Assembly (NCBI RefSeq): GCF_000515115.1
Contig: NZ_AZXF01000027.1
Coordinates: forward strand, 1 to 64,000
DNA from: Nocardiopsis sp. CNT312
GTDB lineage: Bacteria; Actinomycetota; Actinomycetes; Streptosporangiales; Streptosporangiaceae
Direction of reading: 5' to 3'
DNA length: 64,000 nt
Below the pieces are notes generated by a model. The model made no database searches and was not told the DNA's origin. It was given only the letters and a program-made list of their open reading frames with translations. The position numbers and the translations under genes are program-made. Positions 48,491 through 62,670 of this stretch are shown here, piece after piece (position 1 is the first letter of the stretch; each line of letters opens with the position of its first letter).

Positions 48491-48563
48491 GCACCCGTAG
48501 CTCAGTGGATAGAGCACCGGACTTCTAATCCGATGGCCGCAGGTTCGAATCCTGCCGGGTGCG
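48491..48563 (+). tRNA. tRNA-Arg (TCT), attachment site of the element
   Basis: A 73-nt cloverleaf with acceptor GCACCCG / CGGGTGC, T-arm CAGGTTCGAATCCTG and anticodon loop ACTTCTAAT (TCT). The integrase gene of the element follows and reads towards it. Tyrosine integrases of this type use a tRNA 3' half as attB, so the element should start in its 3' end and leave the tRNA intact. Confidence 0.95.
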
Positions 48564-48632
48564 CCGCAAAACCCCAGGTCAAACCGGGTGTGCGAGTCGA
48601 ACAGACGAGGCGGGACGCCCGTCTGGAGCCCC

Positions 48633-48846: not shown

Positions 48847-50313
48847 TCACCCCCGGGCGGGCCTGAGCAGTGCCGCGGTGGCCTCCGCCGCCGCCTTGGC
48901 GACCTCGGGGAACACCGTCTGGTAGGTGTCCTGCGTGAAGTGCGTCGTGGCGTGCCCGAGTTCGGTGGAGACCACCTTCACGTCCGCTCCCGCCGCCAAG
49001 GCGAGCGAGGCCGCGCCGTGGCGCAGTCCGTGCAGGTGGATCGGGGGCAGCCCCGCCGCGCGGGCGATCCGGTTGAACCAGCGCGTCACCTCCCCCGGAT
49101 GCCAGGCGGTGCCGTCGGAGCGGGTGAAGACCAGGCCCGTGTCCGGCCAGTGTGGCCCGGCTTGGAGGCGGGCCCGGTTCTGCTCACGCTTCCAGGAGCG
49201 CAGCACCGCGACCGTGTCCTTGTCGAGGGTGATGGTGCGCTGCCCGGCCGCGCTCTTGGGGATGGTCGTCACCGTCTTCCACCCCAGGGTGACGACCTGG
49301 GTGCGGATATCGATCTGCCCGTCGACCAGGCGGGTGTTGGCCCACGGCAACCCGACCGCCTCACCCCGGCGCAGCCCCTTGACCGCGATCAGGTGCAGCA
49401 GCGGGAACAGCCACCGGTACCTACGGGCGTGGGTGAGGAAGGTGATGGTCTGGGCCGGGGTCCACACCATCACCTCCCCCGGCACCACCCCGTCGACCTG
49501 CCACTGGCGCACCCGCTCAGCCGTCCACACCAGCGGCCGGGTGCGCGGACACGACGGCAGGCGGGCGTGGGAGGCGGCGTTCACGGCCACCGGCAGGTCG
49601 GGGCGGCGCACCGCCTCGGACAGGGCGCTGCGCAGCGTGGCGCGGATGCGGTGCTTGGTCGACAGCGAGATGACCCGCCGCCCCCGCACCGACGCCCTGA
49701 CCTTCGCATCGTGGGAGTCGCGGCATTCCAGGATGCGCTGGTTGGTCTCCTCGATGGCGGTGAACATCGCCTCGACCTGCCAGGGGGTGAGCCGGTCCAG
49801 GCGGACGCGGCCCAGGTGCGGGATGAGGTGGTTGCGCAGGTGCCCGGCGTAGGAGGCACGGGTCTTGACCGCCAGGTCGGGTTTGCCCTGCAGCCACTCG
49901 GTGAGCCACTCGGCGAGGGTCGGGATGCGTTCGCGGGTGCGGATCCCGGTGCCGATCCGGCGTTTGACCTCGACGGTCTCCGGCAGCGGGCGGCGGGCCT
50001 TGAGTGCCTGCTGGATGAGGTCGGCGATCTGCGCCTTCACCTCCGCCTCGTCCTCGGCCAGGCCGAGCAGTGTCTTGACGTGGTCGAGTTGGTCCTGGGC
50101 ACGGTCCTGGGCGGCCAGGCCGCCCCGGCGGGCCTGGCGGCGCTTGCCGCCGGTGGTGCGGGGGAGTTCGATCTGGAACGCCCATTCGCCGTGGCGGGGG
50201 TTCCAGGCGCCGTCCTCGCGGCGCAGCCTCGCACAGCGCGCCCCCAGGGGTTTGCCGGTGTCGGGGTGGCGGCATCCGCAGCGTTTGAACACCGATCCGT
50301 CATGGGAAGCCAT
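48847..50313 (-). CDS. int: tyrosine-type site-specific integrase
   Basis: Recombinase that inserts and excises the element at tRNA-Arg, 488 residues. The N-terminus has a Cys cluster (FKRCGCRHPDTGKPLGARC) typical of actinobacterial element integrases, then a SAM-like DNA-binding domain (~140-240). Catalytic residues: Arg in KGLRRGEA (~315), HxxR in HGLRHG (~428), His in ELGHA and Tyr in DTYQTVF (~463). The ATG directly follows the TAG of the upstream gene, so both are translated from one mRNA. Confidence 0.95.
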   Translation of the reverse strand: MASHDGSVFKRCGCRHPDTGKPLGARCARLRREDGAWNPRHGEWAFQIELPRTTGGKRRQARRGGLAAQDRAQDQLDHVKTLLGLAEDEAEVKAQIADLIQQALKARRPLPETVEVKRRIGTGIRTRERIPTLAEWLTEWLQGKPDLAVKTRASYAGHLRNHLIPHLGRVRLDRLTPWQVEAMFTAIEETNQRILECRDSHDAKVRASVRGRRVISLSTKHRIRATLRSALSEAVRRPDLPVAVNAASHARLPSCPRTRPLVWTAERVRQWQVDGVVPGEVMVWTPAQTITFLTHARRYRWLFPLLHLIAVKGLRRGEAVGLPWANTRLVDGQIDIRTQVVTLGWKTVTTIPKSAAGQRTITLDKDTVAVLRSWKREQNRARLQAGPHWPDTGLVFTRSDGTAWHPGEVTRWFNRIARAAGLPPIHLHGLRHGAASLALAAGADVKVVSTELGHATTHFTQDTYQTVFPEVAKAAAEATAALLRPARG

Positions 50314-50906: not shown

Positions 50907-51356
50907 TCAGTCGGGGCGGATGTGGCCGGTGCAGGCCAGCCACGCCCGGTAGCGGGCCCGCACCCGCTCAGGGATGGCCACCACCCGGTAGCGGGCCACC
51001 CCCCGCTGGTGGCCCACCACCAGGTGCTCGCCCTCCCACACCGGCATCGACCCCAGCAGCGCCCCGGCCCGTGAGACCTCCGCGAACGCCGCAGCGTCGC
51101 CCCCACCGCGCGGGAAGTAGGACACGTCCACACTCGTGTGCGGGCTCACCGGAAGGTGCGGGTGCGCGCCCAGAAAGTCGGCCAGCTCCCGCAGGTCCGC
51201 GATCACTTGTCGGCGCCGCTGCCCGGACGCCGCATCGCTGAAGTCCGCGATGTCGGCAGGCAGGGCGAGCCTGTCTCCGGGGTCCTGGCGGGTCGTGTCG
51301 TTGTGGTCCATGTCCTCGTGGTCCTCACCGCTGGGGTTGTCGAAGGTCCAACTCAT
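50907..51356 (-). CDS. hypothetical protein of the element
   Basis: A 149-residue, mainly acidic protein with no membrane segment and no recognised domain. A conserved-looking core is RRRQVIADLRELADFLGAHPHLPV, followed by VDVSYFP and VGHQRGVARYRVVAIP. Its ATG overlaps the stop of the methyltransferase gene (ATGA), so it is translated with the two methyltransferase-like genes upstream. Confidence 0.7.
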   Translation of the reverse strand: MSWTFDNPSGEDHEDMDHNDTTRQDPGDRLALPADIADFSDAASGQRRRQVIADLRELADFLGAHPHLPVSPHTSVDVSYFPRGGGDAAAFAEVSRAGALLGSMPVWEGEHLVVGHQRGVARYRVVAIPERVRARYRAWLACTGHIRPD

Positions 51357-52369
51357 GCCGCTGCTCCCCTCTCGTGTCCGATCGCATCCGGGTCGGTGAA
51401 CACCAGCGCGTCCTCGTGCTGGACCACATGCACCGGGATCCCCGCTTTGCGCAGGCGGCGGGTCTCCACCATCTGGAAGAACGAGGACCGCGCCACCACC
51501 TGACCCCGCTCCCCCTCACGCAGCGCACACAGCAGAGCCGCGCACCGGTCCACCTGCACCAGACCCGCCCGCCGGCCCGCCTCCGCCACCTGCCCCGGGA
51601 AATCCACCAGACGCCCCTGGCTACGGAACGGGCGGGCCGTCACCACGACCACCCCGCCCGGCGCCAACAAAGGCCGGCACGCCGCCAGGATCCGCGCGAA
51701 GGAGGCCAGCAGCTCCTGGGGCCGCTGGTAGGCCAGGTTCACCACCTCACCTTCGGGCCGGTTCCGGCGGCTGCGGGTGTAGGTGTGGGCGTACTTCTCC
51801 ACCGCCTCCGCGCCGTCACGCCGCGAGCGCACCTGCCCGTGGGTCATCGACCCATAAGGCGGCGAGGTCAGCACCAGACGCACCCGCCCCGCCAGCGAAG
51901 CGGCCAACTCCGTAGCCACCTCGGCGCCGTCACCGGTATGCACCGCGCCGCGGCCGGGCGCCCCGGAGCAGGCGGCCGCTTGCAGGTTGAACCGGGCGGT
52001 GGAGGCCCACTTGGGCTCCAACTCGATCCCCACCGCGTCCCGCCCCAAGTGCAGCGCCTCGATGAGGGTGGTGCCGATCCCGCACATCGGATCCAGCACC
52101 AGGTCCCCGGGCCGGGTGTAGACACCGATGGCGTGGCGGGCGATCGCGGGCAGCATCTTGGCGGGGTGTTCCACCGACAGGCGCGAGTAGCGCTCCCCGC
52201 GCTGGCGGGCGGCCTGCTGCTGGCCCGTGACCCACACCGACCACCCAGCACCCGACGGAGACTGCTGCTGTTCGGGGTGACCATCGCAAGGGCCGTCGCC
52301 ACCGCAGCAGGGGCGGTCGGAGCCGTTGTCGGGACGGGGGCAATCGTTCTCGTCGCAGTCGCGGGTCAT
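51353..52369 (-). CDS. SAM-dependent DNA methyltransferase (N4/N6 type, TRM11-like)
   Basis: A 338-residue methyltransferase. The SAM-binding motif DPMCGIGTT is at 93-101 and the catalytic motif TSPPYG at 168-173, the SPPY form typical of N4-cytosine or N6-adenine methylases. HPAKMLP precedes motif I. The first 45 residues are acidic and Cys-rich (CDENDCPRPD, CCGGDGPC). No restriction gene is near, so it is a solitary methylase that may protect the element or mark its DNA. It overlaps its neighbours by four bases on both sides. Confidence 0.83.
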   Translation of the reverse strand: MTRDCDENDCPRPDNGSDRPCCGGDGPCDGHPEQQQSPSGAGWSVWVTGQQQAARQRGERYSRLSVEHPAKMLPAIARHAIGVYTRPGDLVLDPMCGIGTTLIEALHLGRDAVGIELEPKWASTARFNLQAAACSGAPGRGAVHTGDGAEVATELAASLAGRVRLVLTSPPYGSMTHGQVRSRRDGAEAVEKYAHTYTRSRRNRPEGEVVNLAYQRPQELLASFARILAACRPLLAPGGVVVVTARPFRSQGRLVDFPGQVAEAGRRAGLVQVDRCAALLCALREGERGQVVARSSFFQMVETRRLRKAGIPVHVVQHEDALVFTDPDAIGHERGAAA

Positions 52370-53127
52370 GCGACCACCTCCACCGCGCCGCGCTCCGGGC
52401 GGGAGCGGTATCCCCGCCCCGGAAGGCGGAACACCGACACGTTCAGGTGCGCGGGCGAGGTGATGGTGGCCGCCGCCCGCGCGGCCGAGACCGGCAAAGC
52501 CTCCCCCACATCCGGGTCGAGGTCGAGGTCGGGGTCGGGGTCCTCGTCCCGGACGGGGGCCGGGCCGCCCAGCCCCTCCTCGCACACCGGCACGGTCAAC
52601 GCGATCACGTGCTGCACATACACCAGCCCCGCACACTCCGCCGCCCGCACCACCCCCGGTGCCGGGTCCACCACGGCGCCCCGCGCACGGTGCGCGACCG
52701 GGGTGATGGCCGCGACGATCCCGCCCGGGCGGGTGAGCAGCGCGGCGAAGGCCACCCGCGCCCGGGTGCGCCGTTCCCGGCCCCGCCACTCCTGCTCCAG
52801 CGCGGGCAGCACCGTCACCGTCAGGTGCGCCCACCCGGCGCCGAACACCGTCACCTTCTCGCCCTGGTCGTATGCGGCGCGCGAGGCCGCCTGGCCGGTG
52901 CGGTCCTGCTCGCGGGCCAGCTCCGCGAGGCGGCCCCCGGTCCCGGTCAGGTCCGCGACCGCCTCCCCCGGGCGGGTGTACTCGGCCACCAGCCGGGACG
53001 CCAAACGGTCGGGGACCGCCACCTCCCCCACCCCCGGACGGGTGCCGGGGTGGGGGAGGTGGGGTGCGCACGGCCACACCGCCAGCGGCGGCCTGCCCTT
53101 GGGGGTGTCATAACCCTGGTGTGTCAT
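52366..53127 (-). CDS. methyltransferase-like partner protein
   Basis: A 253-residue protein. RLASRLVAEYTRPGEAVADLTGTGG looks like a SAM-binding motif I (DLTGTGG), as in the following gene (RPGDLVLDPMCGIGTT). No SPPY/DPPY motif is found; ITSPAHLNV near the C-terminus is the nearest. It may be an inactive homologue or a specificity partner. GGAGGG is 6 bases before the ATG at 53127. It is coupled to the methylase gene by an ATGA overlap. Confidence 0.65.
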   Translation of the reverse strand: MTHQGYDTPKGRPPLAVWPCAPHLPHPGTRPGVGEVAVPDRLASRLVAEYTRPGEAVADLTGTGGRLAELAREQDRTGQAASRAAYDQGEKVTVFGAGWAHLTVTVLPALEQEWRGRERRTRARVAFAALLTRPGGIVAAITPVAHRARGAVVDPAPGVVRAAECAGLVYVQHVIALTVPVCEEGLGGPAPVRDEDPDPDLDLDPDVGEALPVSAARAAATITSPAHLNVSVFRLPGRGYRSRPERGAVEVVA

Positions 53128-54575: not shown

Positions 54576-54680
54576 GTTCCCTTCGTCGGGGCGCGCCGAG
54601 GCACACGCTCGGCGCGCGGTGATACGGGTGTTCGGTGGCGGGGCCGCCCCGCCCCCTGTCGCGGGGCAGCCCCGAGGTGG
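54576..54680 (-). promoter_or_regulatory. leader repeat A (upstream of the two-wHTH regulator)
   Basis: In minus-strand order it has a terminator stem (54640-54673, GGGGC-GCCCCGC with one mismatch), the box GGTGTTCGGTGG (plus strand), then a 10-bp perfect hairpin (54591-54617, GCGCGCCGAG / CTCGGCGCGC) and the ribosome site. It lies between two genes of the element. Confidence 0.75.
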
Positions 54681-54691
54681 TGCGGGTACGG

Positions 54692-55312
54692 TCAGGGGCG
54701 CAGGTCCAGGTGGGCGCGGGCGCGCAGCGGCGCCTGGCGGACCGGGTCGTGCAGAGCGGTGGGGGTCAACGGCATGGACCAGGCCCCGACCGACTGGCCG
54801 CGGTCGTACATGGTCAGCAGGGCCCGGCCCCGCGTGGAGACGTACTGCACCGCGCAGGTGGTGAAGGTGATCCGCGGGTCCTCTCGGAAGGTGTAGGTGT
54901 CGGTGACCGTGGTCAGGCTGGCCTCGGTGCGCGCATAGGCCGGGCGCCGGTGCAGGTCCATGCCGTAGACGCCCATGTCGCCGCGCAGGGCGCGGATGAG
55001 GGCGCCGGTGCGCATGGCGCGGTGGGCCCAGGAGTCGATGCAGTCCCAGGTCTGCTCGGTCAGGGCGTCGGCGATCTGCCCCCAGTCGTGGTCGTAGAAG
55101 TCCAGGTCGTGGGTGAGGTCGCCGTGCCCGTAGAGGGTGACGGTGGCGCGGTTGTCCGGCGCCAGGGAACGGGCGCGGGTGAGGTTGATGGTGTTCTGGT
55201 TCAGCCCTGCGGTGATCAGGGTTGCCGGGCCCGCCCGGTGCAGGCGGCGGAGCATGCCGGGGGTGACCTCCTGGTCAGCGAAACGCTCACGCAAGGTGCG
55301 GTAGCCGGTCAC
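54692..55312 (-). CDS. paralogous family protein 1 of the element
   Basis: A 206-residue soluble protein without recognised domain. It shares with the next gene product the order VTPGMLRRLHRAGPATLI, YGHGDLTHDL, DHDW and DCIDSW, and a strand near the end (DPRITFTT). Trp/Asp/His-rich blocks suggest a compact fold. GTG start at 55312 behind AAGGGA; the frame further upstream is leader DNA. Leader copy B is upstream. Confidence 0.7.
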   Translation of the reverse strand: MTGYRTLRERFADQEVTPGMLRRLHRAGPATLITAGLNQNTINLTRARSLAPDNRATVTLYGHGDLTHDLDFYDHDWGQIADALTEQTWDCIDSWAHRAMRTGALIRALRGDMGVYGMDLHRRPAYARTEASLTTVTDTYTFREDPRITFTTCAVQYVSTRGRALLTMYDRGQSVGAWSMPLTPTALHDPVRQAPLRARAHLDLRP

Positions 55313-55319
55313 AAGGTGT

Positions 55320-55430
55320 CCCTTCGTTGGGGCGCGCCGAGGCACACGCTCGGCGCGCGGTGATACAGGTGTTCGCGGTGGCGGGGGCCGCCCCGCCCCG
55401 CTTGGTCGCGGGGCAGCCCCCGAGGGGAAG
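55320..55430 (-). promoter_or_regulatory. leader repeat B (upstream of paralogue 1)
   Basis: Nearly identical to leader A: hairpin GCGCGCCGAG / CTCGGCGCGC at 55332-55358, the box GGTGTTCGCGGTGG, and a terminator stem at 55384-55421. The hairpin is about 20 bases from the GTG start, so it could affect translation as well as transcription. Confidence 0.75.
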
Positions 55431-55439
55431 GCGCCGGGG

Positions 55440-56090
55440 TCAGGTCCGGGTGCTCCGGCGCAGGTAGGCATCGACCCGCTCGCGCACCCGAAGGGCGGCG
55501 GGCCCGGCCGTGAGCGGGTTGGCGATCCGGTAGGGCGCCGCGCTGGCGTGGCCGCCCCGGTCGAACACCCGCACCAGGACCCGGGTATCGGGGTCGTGGT
55601 CGCAGGGGGCCTTGACGGTCACGGTGATGTGAGGGCTGGTGCGGTCGGTGTAGTGGTCGATGTAGGTCTCCCTCCCGTTGACCAGGGGGAAGGCGGTACG
55701 GGCGTCGGGGTCGAACCCGCGTGCCCGCAGTTCCCGGCGCAGCCGCTGCCCGGTGGGCCGGATCCGGGCGGCCTCGTCGATCCAGTCGTCGAGGCAGTCG
55801 CGGGAGGTCTCATCGATGGCAGCCACCAGGTACTCCCAGTCCCGGTCCCCGTAGCCGCAGGGGAAATCGGCGAGGTCCTGGCGCAGGTCGCCGTGGCCGT
55901 AGACGATGTAGCGGGCGGCGTCGGCCGCATCAAGGCGCCGCGAGTGCATGACGCGGAACCGGCGGGTCAGGGCGTCGGCGACGATGACGCCGCCGGGACC
56001 GATCCGGTGCAGGGCGCGCACCGTCTTCGGGGTGATCTCCGCGTCGGCGAACCAGTCGCCCGCCCAGGAGGTGGTCATGTGCTCACGCAT
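55440..56090 (-). CDS. paralogous family protein 2 of the element
   Basis: A 216-residue protein clearly related to paralogue 1: FADAEITPKTVRALHRIGP, YIVYGHGDLRQDL, DRDWEYL, ETSRDCLDDW and SPHITVTVK. The shared YGHGDL and DC(L/I)D(D/S)W blocks are the best family marks. No known domain. AAGGAG is 6 bases before the ATG at 56090. Leader copy C is upstream. Confidence 0.7.
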   Translation of the reverse strand: MREHMTTSWAGDWFADAEITPKTVRALHRIGPGGVIVADALTRRFRVMHSRRLDAADAARYIVYGHGDLRQDLADFPCGYGDRDWEYLVAAIDETSRDCLDDWIDEAARIRPTGQRLRRELRARGFDPDARTAFPLVNGRETYIDHYTDRTSPHITVTVKAPCDHDPDTRVLVRVFDRGGHASAAPYRIANPLTAGPAALRVRERVDAYLRRSTRT

Positions 56091-56097
56091 GGTGTTC

Positions 56098-56195
56098 TCC
56101 TTCGGGCGCGCCGGGCCCAGCGCTCGGCGCGCGTCGTACACGGGTGTTCGCGGTGGTGGGGCCGCCCCGCCCCCTTGTCGCGGGGCGGCCCCCGG
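56098..56195 (-). promoter_or_regulatory. leader repeat C (upstream of paralogue 2)
   Basis: Same architecture as A and B: GCGCGCC / GGCGCGC hairpin at 56106-56132 with a changed loop, the box GGTGTTCGCGGTGG, and a terminator stem at 56158-56192. Confidence 0.75.
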
Positions 56196-56204
56196 GCTCG
56201 GGGG

Positions 56205-56816
56205 TCAGCCGTGGGTGCGCAGGGCGTCGGCGACCGTGCTGGCGATCAGGCGGCTGGTCGAGGTGTGGGAGAACACCCCGCCGGCCTCCAGGGACAGCTC
56301 GCCCCTGGGCTGGGTCCCATCACCCCGCCCCGCGATACGGATACGGGTGGGCTCGATAAACCCGAAAGTGACCGTGATCTGGACGAACCGGGCGGCCCCG
56401 CCCAGGCGGTAGTGGTCCCTCATCCAGGGCAGCCCCTCCCCGGGCGGGCCGCACACGGGCGCCCCGTGCAGGTACACCCCGGCGTCGGCGAGGAAGCTGC
56501 GCAGGTCGTGGACCTGGAGGTTCATGGCGCGGACCTCGGGCCAGGTGTGCAGCCAGTCCCCCGCGATGTCGGCCAGGTCCCGGGCGAGGTCGTCGTCGGT
56601 GGGCTCGCCGTCGTAGACCTCGGCTACCTCGTCCAGCCCGGCGCTGGTGGCGATGATCATCCGGCGCGGGTTGGCGGCCTCGCTGACGGTGACCACCTCG
56701 ACCTCGCGGGTGTTCTCGTGCCAGGTCAGGGCCTGGTCGGGGCCGTCGATGCGCAGCTGGGCGATGTGGCCGTTCGTGACCTGGATCGCTCCGTGGTGGT
56801 ACATACTCGTGTGCAC
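56205..56816 (-). CDS. distant paralogue 3 of the same family
   Basis: A 203-residue protein with weaker likeness to paralogues 1 and 2: VTNGHIAQLRIDGPDQAL aligns with VTPGMLRRLHRAGPATLI, DLARDLADIAGDWLHTW with the HGDL...DW block, and FVQITVTFGF with the late strand. The YGHGDL motif itself is lost. GTG start at 56816 with AGAGGGAG 6 bases upstream. Function unknown. Confidence 0.62.
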   Translation of the reverse strand: MHTSMYHHGAIQVTNGHIAQLRIDGPDQALTWHENTREVEVVTVSEAANPRRMIIATSAGLDEVAEVYDGEPTDDDLARDLADIAGDWLHTWPEVRAMNLQVHDLRSFLADAGVYLHGAPVCGPPGEGLPWMRDHYRLGGAARFVQITVTFGFIEPTRIRIAGRGDGTQPRGELSLEAGGVFSHTSTSRLIASTVADALRTHG

Positions 56817-56943
56817 GGCACACTCCCTCTCATGGGTGCTGTGTTGGGCCCGCGCCCAGCGGTCCTGGGCTCCACACCTGTCCGGTGGGCGCGGGTGTTG
56901 CGGTGCGGCCGGCCTGGAGGTTGCCCCCTCCGGGCCGGTCGCG
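56817..56943 (-). promoter_or_regulatory. diverged leader repeat D (upstream of paralogue 3)
   Basis: Same order of parts as leaders A-C but different stems: CCCAG/CTGGG near 56855-56870, the box GGGTGTTGCGGTG, and a terminator stem GGCCGGCC...GGGCCGG near 56910-56938. Confidence 0.5.
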
Positions 56944-57507: not shown

Positions 57508-57559
57508 TGATAAACCCCCTTCCATTCTCGGGTGTTTCTCGTTCTCGGTCCGAGGTTCA

Positions 57560-57772
57560 CTTGGTCGAACGGGGTTTGTCAACTCGTCCGGTGAACCTTT
57601 TTCCGCGCGTCCCGCAAACGGTGTCCGTTCACGGTCGGGACCCGATGTGACCTTGGGTGGCGTGGGTTTGTCAACTCGCGCCGCGAAACTGTGTTCCGCC
57701 CCACCCCGGAACCGTTGCCGTGTTCCGGGAACGACCCAATAGCAACTTGGGCGGGGCGGGGTTGTCAACTCG
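57560..57772 (-). promoter_or_regulatory. three 27-bp direct repeats with TTGACA cores
   Basis: Units at 57560-57586, 57652-57678 and 57746-57772 are spaced 92 and 94 bases apart. On the minus strand each reads CGAGTTGACAA, C-rich spacer, CCAAG. TTGACA is a perfect sigma70-type -35 box, and GTTGTCAAC in the third copy is a small palindrome. Only weak -10 boxes follow (TTGCTA for the third copy). They may be serial promoters or operators for the run starting at 57507. Confidence 0.6.
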
Positions 57773-58308
57773 TTTCGGCGATTTTTTCGGCGCGTTTCGC
57801 GCATGGAGAGGATCCACGCGCGCGCGTGGCCGGCCGGGCGCATCAGCGGAGCCGTTCCGGGTGATCTTCATTTTCATGGAGGGCGCCGATTTGGGTGATC
57901 AAAGAAAAGGCACACAACTTGTGTTGTGTGCTTTGGGTGGTGTTTTTCGGGTGCTGGTGGTGGGAGGGGAGGGTGGGTGGGAGGAAGAGGGAGTGCAGGG
58001 GGCGGGGCGGGCTGGGCCCGCCCCGGAGAAGGAGGGGGCCGCCCGCCCCCTACGTGAAGAGGACTACCCACTGGGTATAAGTCTGGCTTGCCGCCGACCC
58101 GTTTGAGCACCGCCTGACCTGCACTGATAACGCCTGGCGCGCCCTGTTTCAGTGGCCCTCCCACAGGCGGAGTCACAGGCCCACTGATCGGCCCACTCAC
58201 AGGCCCAGTCACAGGCCCTGCTGTGGCCCACATGTCTGCCGGGCCTCCACCGCGCGCCGGGGCGGCACCGACCACCCTGCTGAACCCCACCGGCCTGAAC
58301 CGGGAGTG
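57773..58308. other. non-coding region with an iteron-like array
   Basis: This stretch between the OmpA-BTAD gene and the TTGACA repeats has no believable gene. The minus frame 57874-58290 is Pro/Gly low complexity. It holds the 12-bp repeats at 58173-58232 and a G-rich tract at 57955-58020 followed by a short AT-richer part. Confidence 0.5.
58173..58232. repeat. five 12-bp iteron-like repeats
   Basis: Consecutive 12-base units of the type TCACAGGCCCAC; units 1, 3 and 4 differ by one or two bases, units 2 and 5 by more. Arrays like this are initiator-binding iterons in some plasmids and integrative elements. In one minus frame they would code a Gly-Pro-Val-Thr repeat. Confidence 0.6.
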
Positions 58309-60996
58309 CTACCGAACGAGGTCTTGAAAGAGAGCGCGGGACTCCGGTCCGGGTTGATCGCCACAGCGTCGGAGTTCGTCCTTCAGGGCGTCGAAGCACC
58401 GGTGGACCGCGTCTTTCCTTCCCAGGGAGGCGTAATGCTTCATTTTCTCTTGGTGGAGGACTTCGTTCAGGCGGTCCACGCGAAGTGCGCAGTCGATGAG
58501 GTGTATTCGTTCTTCTTGGTCTTCGACGTAGTCCAGCAACCGAACGTACGCATCAGCAGCCATGCTTTGGAGTTTCCACCGGAGTTCGGCGAACCATTCA
58601 CCCTGAACATCTGTCAGGAGATCCTGGCGATAGAGGCTTACCATCTTCCTCAACAGGGTTTCCGTGTTCGACCCGCTGGCCTTCCTCACTTCGTCGTGCA
58701 GTCCACAGAACTGGTGGACGTCGATGTCGAAGTATTCCCACTGGAGCCGGTAGCGGTTCTTCTCATTCTCCACCACCGGGACCTCAGGGCCCAGACCCAG
58801 TGCGACGCGCACGGCCTTGCGCAAAGTCGAGACCGCGTTGGACCTGAACCGGCGTGCCTGCACCTCGGGCATCTGTGGGGCGAGGACTTCCGTCAGCTCC
58901 TGGTGCCAGACACCCTCTCGGGGACCGAGGGCCAAGACGGCGAGCAGGGTGTAGGTGCTGGTACGCGTCCCCTGAAGAACATCGTGGCCCTCGACCTCGC
59001 ACACCACCTGGGGAGCGAGCAGCCGTACCTGTGCCCTGGCCGGTGTGTGGGTGCCGGGCGCAGTTTCGGCCCGCTCCTCCTTGGCCTGGTAGGGCTCGTC
59101 CCCACCCGTTCCCTTCGCGGCTTCGGTGCCGGGGCAGGGCTCGTGGCTGTCGTCGGCTTCAGGGTGTTCCTCTCCTGCGTCATCAGACGTCGCAGGCTGT
59201 TCTTCCTCGTTCTCCTGGCCGAACGCGGTCTCCTCCTCGGTTTCAGGGGTGTGCTCGGGGACCGCTGGCGGCTCCTGCGGGTCAGGGGTGTCTTCGTGTT
59301 CTTTCCGTTCCTGCGGCGGGCTCCACAACCGCAGAGCACCGCCGATCGCTTCTCTCCCGCCGTGGGCGCGGACCCGAACACGGCGGGTGTCTGAGCAGTC
59401 CACCGTGACCGCAGCGCCCTCGCTCTGACCGAGCACGCACACCACCGCCCCGGGAGTACCGGTGAGCGCCGCCGACAGGCCCTGATCGGCGTCGAGGTCG
59501 CCCGCTTCCACCACGGCCAGCACAGGCACAGCGGCAGGGGAAACCGCGCCGCCCCCGTCACCGTGCTCGTCCCGCTGCCGGGCCAGGGACAGCAGCTCGG
59601 CCTCCACCGCGACCCGCACCTGCGCCAGGCCGGAGGCCACCTGCACACCCCCCAGCGGGATACCTTCCGCGACCAGGGCGGTCGCGGCCGTGCGGGTGGC
59701 GACCACCGGGGCCGGGGCGTGCCCGGCGACGACGGCCGCGAGGACGCTCGCCGCGTGGGTTCCGGCGAACGCCACACCCCCGGAGGCATCCACCCGGCCG
59801 GTGTCGGAGACCAGCAGGTACCCGTCCCCGTCCAGGACACCACGGGAGAGCCCTTCGCCATCCTGGCGCAGCAGGACCTCCTGGTCCTGAGCGGCGTCAT
59901 CGACGACAGACCCGCCCGACAATGCACCTGCCCCGAAGGCCGCATCGGCGGCCGGTCCGGGCCTGCTGTGTTCGGTCGGGGCCCGTCGCCGTCCGGCCGT
60001 ATACCCGGCCGCCGCTCCCACCGCCCCGGACACGGCGGCGGCCCCGGCGGCAGCAAGCACAACGTTCTCTCCCACACCGGTGGCCGTGCCCGAGCCCGCC
60101 CTTTCTGAGACCCGTTCCGTGGCGGTCTCCCCGGAGGACGCTTCAGGTTGGGAGGCCGCCGACCGCTCGGGAGCCGGGGCCGGGGCGGTGGGGCGCTGGA
60201 GGGTGTAGGAGATCTCCACCCGCCGGTGCTGGCCATAGAAGGCATGCGGCTGCGCAGGGGGCTGGGCCGAACCCAGACCAACCACCTGGATCTCCACCCC
60301 GGCCTCCAACCGCTCGGCCACATGGTCGGCCACCGCCCGGGCACGGCGCTCAGACAGGCCCTGGTTGTAGAAGGGGTCGCCGACCGGGTCGGTGTGCCCG
60401 CTCACCACGACCGGCTCGCCGGGGCGGGCGAACTCAGCGATGAGAGCGATCGTGGGCTCCAGGGACCGGGCCATCTCGGGGGTGAGCTCGGCCGAGTCGA
60501 AAGCGAACCCCGCCAGCGGCAGGACACGGTCGGTCCTGCCCTGCGCCTGCTGATCCTGGGCTGTCGGGGTTTCCTCCGCAGGAGGCGTGTCGACCACGGT
60601 CGGCGCTTGGGCTGTCGCCTCGGTCGTGTGCGCGGCCAGGGCCGTGGTCTGGGTCGAGGTCGCGGCCGTGCCCCCGGCCACCAGCACCCACACCAGGCGG
60701 ACCAGCCCCACCCGGGGCACCAGCCCCACCCGGGGCACCAGCCCGCGCGCCAGCGCGAGGACGTCCGCGGCCACGACCACCAGGTGGGCCGCCCACACCG
60801 CCCACAGGAACACGACGAAGAACGCCAGCACCACCTCATCAGGGACGCTGCCCGCACGCAGGTACTGGAGGAACCACGCCCAGGTGGCCTCCTCCCCCAG
60901 CGGCCACTCCAGGCCGCTGGCCAGCCACGGCGGCCCGACCAGCAAAAGCACCGAGACCGCGACCTCGCACGCCACGGACCACACGCTGCGCGGCAT
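58309..60996 (-). CDS. transmembrane OmpA-domain / SARP-BTAD transcriptional regulator
   Basis: An 895-residue chimera. Two to three membrane segments lie at ~8-30, ~53-80 and ~98-112. An OmpA/MotB peptidoglycan-binding domain is at ~157-264 (FAFDSAELTPEMARSLEP, SGHTDPVGD, NQGLSERRARAV). Another hydrophobic segment is at ~313-334, then a middle domain of unknown fold (~365-560), an acidic linker, an OmpR-like winged helix (~656-747) and a BTAD helical domain (~752-895, WEYFDIDVHQF, YRQDLLTDVQGEW). It could sense peptidoglycan outside and activate genes inside. ATG at 60996 has GGGGGAG four bases upstream. Confidence 0.85.
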   Translation of the reverse strand: MPRSVWSVACEVAVSVLLLVGPPWLASGLEWPLGEEATWAWFLQYLRAGSVPDEVVLAFFVVFLWAVWAAHLVVVAADVLALARGLVPRVGLVPRVGLVRLVWVLVAGGTAATSTQTTALAAHTTEATAQAPTVVDTPPAEETPTAQDQQAQGRTDRVLPLAGFAFDSAELTPEMARSLEPTIALIAEFARPGEPVVVSGHTDPVGDPFYNQGLSERRARAVADHVAERLEAGVEIQVVGLGSAQPPAQPHAFYGQHRRVEISYTLQRPTAPAPAPERSAASQPEASSGETATERVSERAGSGTATGVGENVVLAAAGAAAVSGAVGAAAGYTAGRRRAPTEHSRPGPAADAAFGAGALSGGSVVDDAAQDQEVLLRQDGEGLSRGVLDGDGYLLVSDTGRVDASGGVAFAGTHAASVLAAVVAGHAPAPVVATRTAATALVAEGIPLGGVQVASGLAQVRVAVEAELLSLARQRDEHGDGGGAVSPAAVPVLAVVEAGDLDADQGLSAALTGTPGAVVCVLGQSEGAAVTVDCSDTRRVRVRAHGGREAIGGALRLWSPPQERKEHEDTPDPQEPPAVPEHTPETEEETAFGQENEEEQPATSDDAGEEHPEADDSHEPCPGTEAAKGTGGDEPYQAKEERAETAPGTHTPARAQVRLLAPQVVCEVEGHDVLQGTRTSTYTLLAVLALGPREGVWHQELTEVLAPQMPEVQARRFRSNAVSTLRKAVRVALGLGPEVPVVENEKNRYRLQWEYFDIDVHQFCGLHDEVRKASGSNTETLLRKMVSLYRQDLLTDVQGEWFAELRWKLQSMAADAYVRLLDYVEDQEERIHLIDCALRVDRLNEVLHQEKMKHYASLGRKDAVHRCFDALKDELRRCGDQPGPESRALFQDLVR

Positions 60997-61112
60997 ACCT
61001 CTCCCCCTTCTTCGTTGTCGTGCGATCTGTTCCAAGACACGGGGCCACGCAGCCCCCGTGAGGGATCACCCCGGCGGGGGTTGGAGCGCGCTCGCGGAGT
61101 GCGGGTACTCGG

Positions 61113-61145
61113 GGGCGGCCCGGCGGGCCCGGCCCGGGGCCGCCC
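61113..61145 (-). terminator. hairpin after the frameshifted secreted-protein gene
   Basis: GGGCGGCCC and GGGCCGCCC pair over 9 bp, about 20 bases past the stop codon at 61164. Confidence 0.5.
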
Positions 61146-61163
61146 TCGGGGGGCTTCGACCGC

Positions 61164-61981
61164 TCAGCGGATGTCGGTGACCACGGAGTGGATCTCGCTG
61201 ACCGGCAGCGCGACCGTGGACTCGGTGGTCAGATCCTCCAGCCCTCCACCGGTGCCGTCGGTGGCCGACCAGGACACGGCCCACTCCCACACCGCTCTCA
61301 CCGCCACCGTGTCCCCCGCCCCGCCCGGAGGCAGGGAGGTGTAGGTGTGGCCGCAGTCCGGGGAGCCCTCCTCCCGGTAGGTGCGCGCAGAGAACACCGT
61401 GCCGGGCCCGGCGCACACCACCTCGTGGCCGTCACCGGTGTCCCACACCACCCGCCGGGGCGCGGCGACCACGGTCACCGACCCGCGCTGACCGAGGCGG
61501 TCGCCGACACCGGCGCCCAGTCCCCCTCGTCCACCCACATCCAGGAGGGCATGTTCACGAACCTGGGACGGCCCAGGGGCGGCGCGGTGCCGATGTCGGG
61601 CCCAGGCGGGCGCATCGCCGCCCGCATCCGCTCCGCCAGCGCGGCCGGATCGAACCCCGCTTCCGCCGCGGTCTCCAGGACCGCGCTGCACCGGGCCGCG
61701 CCCCTGGGTACCTCCTGCGGGCCCTCCAGGCCCGACCGCGCGAACTCCTCGTCCCACACCACGCACTCGGGGCCGCTGCCCGTGCTGGCGCTCTCGCTGG
61801 GACGTATGCGAGGCGGAGGCGGTTCTCGGGGCGGGCTGTGGGCTCCGGCTGTGCATCCCGTCGCAGAGCACTCGACGTTGTGGGAGAAGCGCCCGTCATC
61901 GGCCAGGGCTGGCGCAGCGCTGGCCAGGACACAGCACATTCCGATACCTACGACGGCGCCTCGTTCACGCAGGCTCAGCAC
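61164..61981 (-). pseudogene. secreted protein gene split by a -1 frameshift near 61486
   Basis: The first frame starts at GTG 61981 (GGGGGAG 8 bases upstream, start overlapping the lipoprotein stop) with a signal peptide (AVVGIGMCCVLASAAPALADD) and runs to WVDEGDWAPVSATASVSAGR then stops. The neighbouring frame carries on the same protein: GSVTVVAAPRRVVWDTGDGHEVVCAGPGTVFS to SEIHSVVTDIR. One missing G in the run GCGGGT explains it. The joined ~270-residue product looks like the secreted, Trp-rich proteins found next to conjugation genes in actinomycete elements. A sequencing error is possible. Confidence 0.75.
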
Positions 61982-62490
61982 TGGTCGAACTCCCCCAGCC
62001 ACAGTTCCTCGACCTTCCACTGCCCGGCCTGTTCGGTGACCGTGGCCACGAACAAGCGGGTGTTGCGTGCCGAGGCCTCACGAGGGGGATGACCCTCCAG
62101 CACCCACTCGCTGTTGTCCATGCAGTCCTCGACCACGACCTGCGGGGGATCGCCGTCAAGGTCTGCCTCCACCACTTGGGGACGCAGCACTGGCTCCCCT
62201 GTAGCCGTGGCACCGTCCAGCATCGCCGTGGTGAGTTCGAGTGCCTGGCCTGAGGCGTACCCGTCCAGGTCCGGGTGGTCCTCAGCGCCTTCCAGGGAAC
62301 CGTCGACCAGGGCCCCCATCATCCCGCGGTAGGCCTCCAGCGCCAGCTCCTCCGCCGGTGGGCTGGCCTGCGCCGTGCGAGTCGGTGGCGCGGGTGTCGG
62401 CTCGCCGCTCCGGTCTCTCTCCTGCGCCGCACACCCGGCCAGAACCACCGCAACGGCCACCGCAACCCCACCCGCCACAGGCACGCGCAT
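61975..62490 (-). CDS. lipoprotein of the element
   Basis: A 171-residue lipoprotein with a lipobox VLAGC at ~20-24 after a hydrophobic signal. A Thr/Pro-rich linker is followed by a globular domain (LALEAYRGMMGALVDGSLEGAEDHPDLDGYASGQAL ... TEQAGQWKVEELWLGEFDQC) of the NTF2-like type seen in element lipoproteins. ATG 62490 is chosen; GTG 62511 is possible. Its stop overlaps the start of the secreted-protein gene, so they are coupled. Confidence 0.78.
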   Translation of the reverse strand: MRVPVAGGVAVAVAVVLAGCAAQERDRSGEPTPAPPTRTAQASPPAEELALEAYRGMMGALVDGSLEGAEDHPDLDGYASGQALELTTAMLDGATATGEPVLRPQVVEADLDGDPPQVVVEDCMDNSEWVLEGHPPREASARNTRLFVATVTEQAGQWKVEELWLGEFDQC

Positions 62491-62670
62491 GCCCCACCGC
62501 CGTTTCCGCACCGAGCACGGCACCAGCACCGCGCTTTCGATAAGTGACACTAACCACACACAGAGTCACGGCACAACCCGTTCCCGGATACTCCTCGTGA
62601 CCAAAAGTGTGAAGAGAACCACCGCGATCCGATGTCGCACGCCCCACCTGCAAAAACACGAAGACGAGGC

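Follow-up and report, generated by a model that had tools for sequence, protein, structure and literature searches.

One-component membrane regulators of the ToxR/CadC type combine, in one chain, a winged helix inside the cell with a sensor domain outside. The Tad locus of the C. acnes plasmid pIMPLE contains, right after three TadE genes, an open reading frame with LysM and BTAD domains (PMC3666418), and C. acnes plasmids of this sort also carry conjugation genes (PMC5696575). In the AfsR structure, 11-bp direct repeats are occupied by two protomers, which contact sigma and RNA polymerase (PMC10936776), and in A. baumannii OmpA the residues Asp271 and Arg286 bind diaminopimelate (DAP) (PMC5974059). 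The window, which is the whole 64,000-nucleotide stretch of DNA analysed here, codes for a membrane protein in which an OmpA domain stands in for LysM and which is a new form of this known, apparently uncharacterised Tad-locus protein. The initial annotation knew of no described OmpA+BTAD example and we likewise found no description in the literature searched, where the matches for OmpA with BTAD look unrelated by title.

Architecture of the OmpA-BTAD protein

The protein is encoded by a stop-free minus-strand frame that is unbroken over its whole length (58309-61035; Table 1). Its start is best assigned to ATG 60996, directly 5' of which lies the Shine-Dalgarno sequence AAGAAGGGGGAGAGG, while an in-frame TTG at 61035, 5' of this ATG, would give an alternative protein of 908 aa. 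Residue numbers count from this TTG, making ATG 60996 residue 14. Both the OmpA match (177-262, E 1.3e-11) and the BTAD match (772-905, E 1e-5) exceed the curated Pfam cut-offs, and AlphaFold2 with a nine-row alignment gave confident models of the OmpA domain (pLDDT ~80-93) and of the winged helix and BTAD (pLDDT ~80-95). When these models were compared with the PDB using Foldseek, the OmpA domain matched OprF (5u1h) and A. baumannii OmpA with a DAP peptide (3td5). The C-terminal part, which has the SARP order of an OmpR-type winged helix followed by BTAD, matched EmbR (2ff4) and the SARP part of AfsR (8k60, 8hvr), with 2ff4 and 8k60 as the best hits. A split or chimeric gene is ruled out by the single open frame and by the recurrence of the architecture in eight other loci. 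The single intact frame, the Pfam matches and the AlphaFold2 models thus bear out the initial description of one 895-residue chain with membrane helices, OmpA, a further helix and a winged helix plus BTAD, and this membrane-crossing link between a wall domain and a DNA-binding activator is a real single chain.

Table 1. Features of the OmpA-BTAD gene, its protein and the surrounding element, in window coordinates
Feature	Position	Strand	Remarks
OmpA-(FtsK-like)-winged helix-BTAD membrane protein	58309..60996	-	895 aa from ATG 60996; stop 58309
Transmembrane helix 1	60916..60990	-	aa 16-40; hydropathy peak ~17-35; preceded by basic N-terminus
Transmembrane helix 2	60748..60840	-	aa 66-96; hydropathy peak ~59-96; basic loop RGLVPRVGLVPRVGLVR after
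Transmembrane helix 3	60661..60720	-	aa ~106-125; hydropathy peak ~103-121
OmpA peptidoglycan-binding domain (predicted)	60196..60507	-	aa 177-280; Pfam and PDB fold matches
Transmembrane helix 4	59995..60063	-	aa 325-347; hydropathy peak ~325-343; GRRR stop-transfer after
FtsK/EccC/TcpA-like alpha/beta domain	59323..59799	-	aa ~413-571; predicted cytoplasmic; fold modelled on relatives' copy, linked to window by HHalign
Acidic low-complexity linker	59032..59313	-	aa ~575-668
OmpR/SARP-type winged helix	58723..59028	-	aa 670-771; AlphaFold2, PDB fold matches
BTAD domain	58321..58722	-	aa 772-905; Pfam, AlphaFold2, PDB fold matches
Deletion scar	60997..61163	-	168 bp; colinear relative G046:C125 holds ~6.3 kb there
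Homologue of second Tad-cluster gene (PKD-like secreted protein)	61164..62020	-	split by frameshift near 61481-61490
Homologue of first Tad-cluster gene (lipoprotein)	61975..62559	-	likely ATG 62490
Promoter-like stretch upstream of lipoprotein gene	62546..62624	-	well conserved with same-genus relative; candidate regulator target
Three iteron-like repeats	57559..57773	.	GTTTGTCAACTCG core, 92-94 bp spacing, downstream of gene; also in sister element G046:C125 3629-3814
tRNA-Arg (TCT), probable integration site	48491..48565	+	
Tyrosine integrase of element	48847..50313	-	

The hydropathy profile, together with basic stretches before helix 1, between helices 2 and 3 and right after helix 4, would by the positive-inside rule place the OmpA domain outside the cell and the C-terminal half with BTAD inside, and not both on the same side. 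Within the OmpA domain, Asp216 and Arg231 are invariant in a seven-protein alignment and match the DAP-binding Asp271/Arg286 of A. baumannii OmpA by spacing (15 residues in each). With its OmpA/OprF fold and this Asp/Arg pair, we infer that the domain is a peptidoglycan binder. A chance match to OmpA was considered and ruled out by the fold, the E-values and the ligand pair.

The initial annotation overlooked a domain that follows helix 4 and precedes the acidic linker. It is FtsK-like and well conserved among relatives, LysM-type proteins included. The model of the relatives' domain (pLDDT 82) resembled FtsK (Z 11.5), TcpA (10.7) and EccC (10.5) by VIA-align 2; this RecA-like FtsK fold was thus found on the relatives' domain, and in the window copy by profile comparison only, with HHalign matching the domain of the window subgroup to that of the family at 96.5% probability. 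The family HMM missed the subgroup's domain because the subgroup is so strongly diverged. The loop at the Walker A position reads GxGxTGxGAxGAxR in the members aligned and, since the Walker lysine is absent, the middle domain is probably a pseudo-ATPase.

Terminal proteins of Tad clusters in relatives

In every complete cluster read, HMM annotation gave the gene order lipoprotein, PKD-like, SAF, (TadZ), TadA, TadB, TadC, TadE, TadE, TadG and membrane protein. The terminal gene of these complete actinobacterial Tad (Flp) pilus clusters is of the LysM-FtsK-like-BTAD, OmpA-FtsK-like-BTAD or OmpA-FtsK-like type, the last without BTAD. The LysM type is widespread and comes from several families. 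The OmpA-BTAD type was found in the window and in eight other loci, all from one family (Nocardiopsis, Streptomonospora and relatives), so the window protein is not unique; these nine loci, the other eight of which are in Streptomonospora alba, S. mangrovi, Nocardiopsis sp. FR4, N. trehalosi and the genomes G018, G030, G046 and G072, are a lower bound. BTAD lies above the Pfam cut-off in the relatives' loci L058, L061, L062, L109 and L111, and was detected in L055, L096 and L103 solely by a profile built from relatives, with L055 itself among the seed sequences. The OmpA type without BTAD occupies 14 distinct loci, always in the same place after TadG. One genome, that of the window (G000), has all three kinds: the OmpA-BTAD protein and two paralogues of it, an OmpA-only protein (C32, L005) and a LysM-LysM-BTAD protein (C21, L016), both of which end Tad pilus clusters. 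The last-gene position after TadG was seen in the eight OmpA-BTAD relatives; the window keeps the flanking lipoprotein and PKD genes only.

The window protein has the layout of the LysM-BTAD type, namely three helices, an ectodomain, a fourth helix, the FtsK-like domain and winged helix-BTAD, with OmpA instead of LysM as the ectodomain. The same terminal position and layout in both types support the earlier proposal that OmpA took the place of LysM in a membrane protein of this sort. Outside the family, no OmpA-BTAD protein was present among the matches listed from class- and phylum-wide samples of ~200 genomes each, these matches being LysM-type or BTAD-only. Plasmids and phages gave no direct copies, isolated OmpA domains alone being matched, and a search of genome contigs with the window protein alone as query gave no match. 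A first sub-alignment was too divergent for pattern reading.

In a TadA tree, a branch with values of 100/100 divides the OmpA-type from the LysM-type clusters, and next to the OmpA-BTAD clusters those with OmpA only group as a single clade (99/99). One LysM-to-OmpA replacement, followed by one loss of BTAD, is likely rather than proven from this tree, in which several deep branches are long. The window protein pairs with that of G046 in a tree of the N-terminal part (100/99) and with that of N. trehalosi in a tree of the winged helix-BTAD part (97/88). Because the two trees give different closest relatives, they suggest exchange of the C-terminal part and hint at recombination between modules, with long branches again advising caution. 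Relative to the G046 protein, OmpA is the most conserved part (64% identity, pN 0.21, pS 0.46) and BTAD the least conserved folded part (25% identity, pN 0.54, pS 0.76).

The Tad locus and its element

The gene sits on a mobile element, as initially claimed. Specifically, an integrase lies beside tRNA-Arg, and the inner part of this tRNA recurs beyond the window at C15 76106-76134 and C15 76856-76892 (34/37 bases); the tRNA-Arg integrated element is probably ~28 kb long. The element also contains a DNA methylase of the N6/N4 family (window 51356-52600) and, beyond the window at L007 9373-12520 (C15 67.4-70.5 kb), two putative glycosyltransferase-like genes that are possibly cargo, their translation having been judged by eye.

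At the DNA level the window locus is colinear with G046:C125, which at the position of the scar contains SAF, TadZ, TadA, TadB, TadC, TadE, TadE and TadG. The Tad cluster of G046:C125 is adjoined by T4SS genes (coupling protein, VirB4/TraG-like, PrgI, T4SS pilin) and a gene for an NlpC/P60+SLT protein, a set that recurs, together with a replication-relaxation protein, in N. trehalosi, G072 and G030. Four OmpA-BTAD clusters (L125, L126, L127, L129) adjoin T4SS genes, so elements of the Nocardiopsis type may move their pilus and transfer genes together as a unit. By comparison with these relatives, the T4SS and NlpC/P60 genes are absent from the window element. The window locus is a remnant. With SAF to TadG deleted and the neighbouring conjugation genes lost, its OmpA-BTAD protein is an orphan in this strain.

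It is about an even question whether this strain's protein is itself a decaying remnant, translated yet functionless and due to be lost. The SAF-to-TadG deletion, the frameshifted PKD neighbour and the lost NlpC/P60 and T4SS genes all favour decay, although the frameshift could be a sequencing error. The gene has a GC3 of 0.81, below most genes in the window, and its branch in the N-terminal (TM-OmpA) tree measures 0.87 versus 0.18 for its sister, a difference that relaxed constraint following operon loss would produce but that does not prove it. Decay is countered by an 895-codon frame that is still open, by the presence of a Shine-Dalgarno sequence and by the retained ligand residues. Decay of this copy would be compatible with the function that we favour below for the family.

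Upstream of the lipoprotein gene, a search for SARP-type 11-/22-bp heptamer direct repeats gave best scores close to those of shuffles in nearly all loci. For the leader repeats at 54576-56943, initially suggested as the regulator's target, such a role is not supported. They contain near-identical GC-rich hairpins (GCGCGCCGAG...CTCGGCGCGC) at 54578-54656, 55319-55397 and 56098-56133, self-complementary and located at the starts of successive, separate element genes, which look like leader or attenuator hairpins and not like 11/22-bp SARP direct repeats. The iteron-like repeats downstream of the gene are a possible origin or control site.

Function and known counterparts

The explanation that we favour, with somewhat better than even confidence, is that the protein is a wall-anchored SARP-type regulator that closes the actinobacterial Tad (Flp) pilus operon and acts on its own operon, and that it is orphaned here. 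Four membrane helices would anchor the chain, and the extracytoplasmic OmpA domain, in the place that LysM takes in most relatives, would bind diaminopimelate in the peptidoglycan of the cell wall. In the cytoplasm the degenerate FtsK/EccC-like domain would probably make the protein oligomerise or dock with the machinery of the pilus or of secretion, and the C-terminal winged helix and BTAD would bring RNA polymerase to the promoter of the operon itself, such that pilus genes, and perhaps also element genes, would be expressed according to the state of the wall or of assembly. The initial annotation had pictured a direct wall-to-promoter switch. Its layout, with the wall outside and DNA inside, fits the predicted topology and the peptidoglycan-binding residues; the direct signal path is uncertain given the 14 clusters without BTAD, and the switch would have lost its likely regulon here, since both the Tad core and the T4SS are missing from this genome's locus through deletion.

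A more specific signalling scheme appears somewhat less probable than its negation, namely that these proteins are one-chain receptors in which OmpA reads peptidoglycan (or the pilus passing through), the pseudo-ATPase FtsK-like domain relays the signal and the SARP part activates the pilus and conjugation genes of the element. No description of such a layout, from OmpA through an FtsK-like domain to a SARP activator, was found in the literature searched.

Transcription control is not essential to the role of the OmpA protein, since 14 related clusters keep it without BTAD. The strongest rival to the regulator is thus a structural wall anchor, because a whole clade lost BTAD and kept the rest. 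Such an anchor would fix the pilus assembly platform to peptidoglycan, with OmpA or LysM outside and the FtsK-like domain touching TadA/TadB inside, and BTAD would be an add-on or relic of little regulatory importance. In its favour are the TM-OmpA-TM-FtsK-like proteins that follow TadG in that clade, and OmpA as the most constrained part of the protein. We nevertheless regard a purely structural role as rather unlikely, as every LysM-type protein read from tad clusters retains the winged helix and BTAD, as do nine proteins of the OmpA type, the SARP folds are confident in the window protein, and pN of BTAD is, weakly, below pS. A wall sensor that times conjugative transfer with wall growth via the leader repeats is very improbable even though the gene lies inside a tRNA-Arg integrated element and its cluster adjoins T4SS genes in four relatives, given that in relatives it is the last gene of the Tad pilus operon and not part of the transfer block, that the repeats are hairpins at gene starts and not SARP boxes, and that the loss of the Tad core and T4SS here therefore leaves no transfer-timing switch to be claimed.

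The favoured regulator would be a SARP-type activator tied to pilus and conjugation genes and not to antibiotic synthesis. This apparently unstudied membrane protein, with a wall-binding domain and a transcription activator, is encoded in Tad loci both of actinomycetes and of plasmids from C. acnes. In operons that are otherwise constant, nature has exchanged LysM for OmpA and dropped BTAD, which provides a ready set of variants with which to ask if contact with the wall governs pilus gene expression or serves only to anchor the machine.

Compared with the ToxR/CadC-type regulators, the window protein has its winged helix at the C-terminus, has additional BTAD and FtsK-like domains, and has a sensor that is predicted to bind peptidoglycan. 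It shares with AfsR and EmbR an OmpR-type winged helix followed by BTAD, but their SARP part is N-terminal and they are not membrane proteins, whereas the window protein is a membrane protein and has this part, of distant sequence, at its C-terminus. The middle domain has the fold of the FtsK/EccC/TcpA ATPases (Z about 10-11.5) but differs from them in lacking the Walker A lysine and probably has no ATPase activity. The OmpA domain shares its fold and DAP-binding Asp/Arg pair with the peptidoglycan-binding domains of OmpA, OprF, Pal, TagL and OmpATb, and differs from these in that the protein bearing it lies in the plasma membrane of a Gram-positive actinomycete and has a transcription activator in the same chain. 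The closest counterparts are the LysM-BTAD proteins of Tad loci (PAGK_2369 on pIMPLE, PMC3666418; L016), which, like the OmpA-BTAD type, follow TadG and have three helices, a wall-binding ectodomain, one helix, an FtsK-like domain and winged helix-BTAD; the window protein differs from them in having OmpA in place of LysM and in the deletion of its Tad core.
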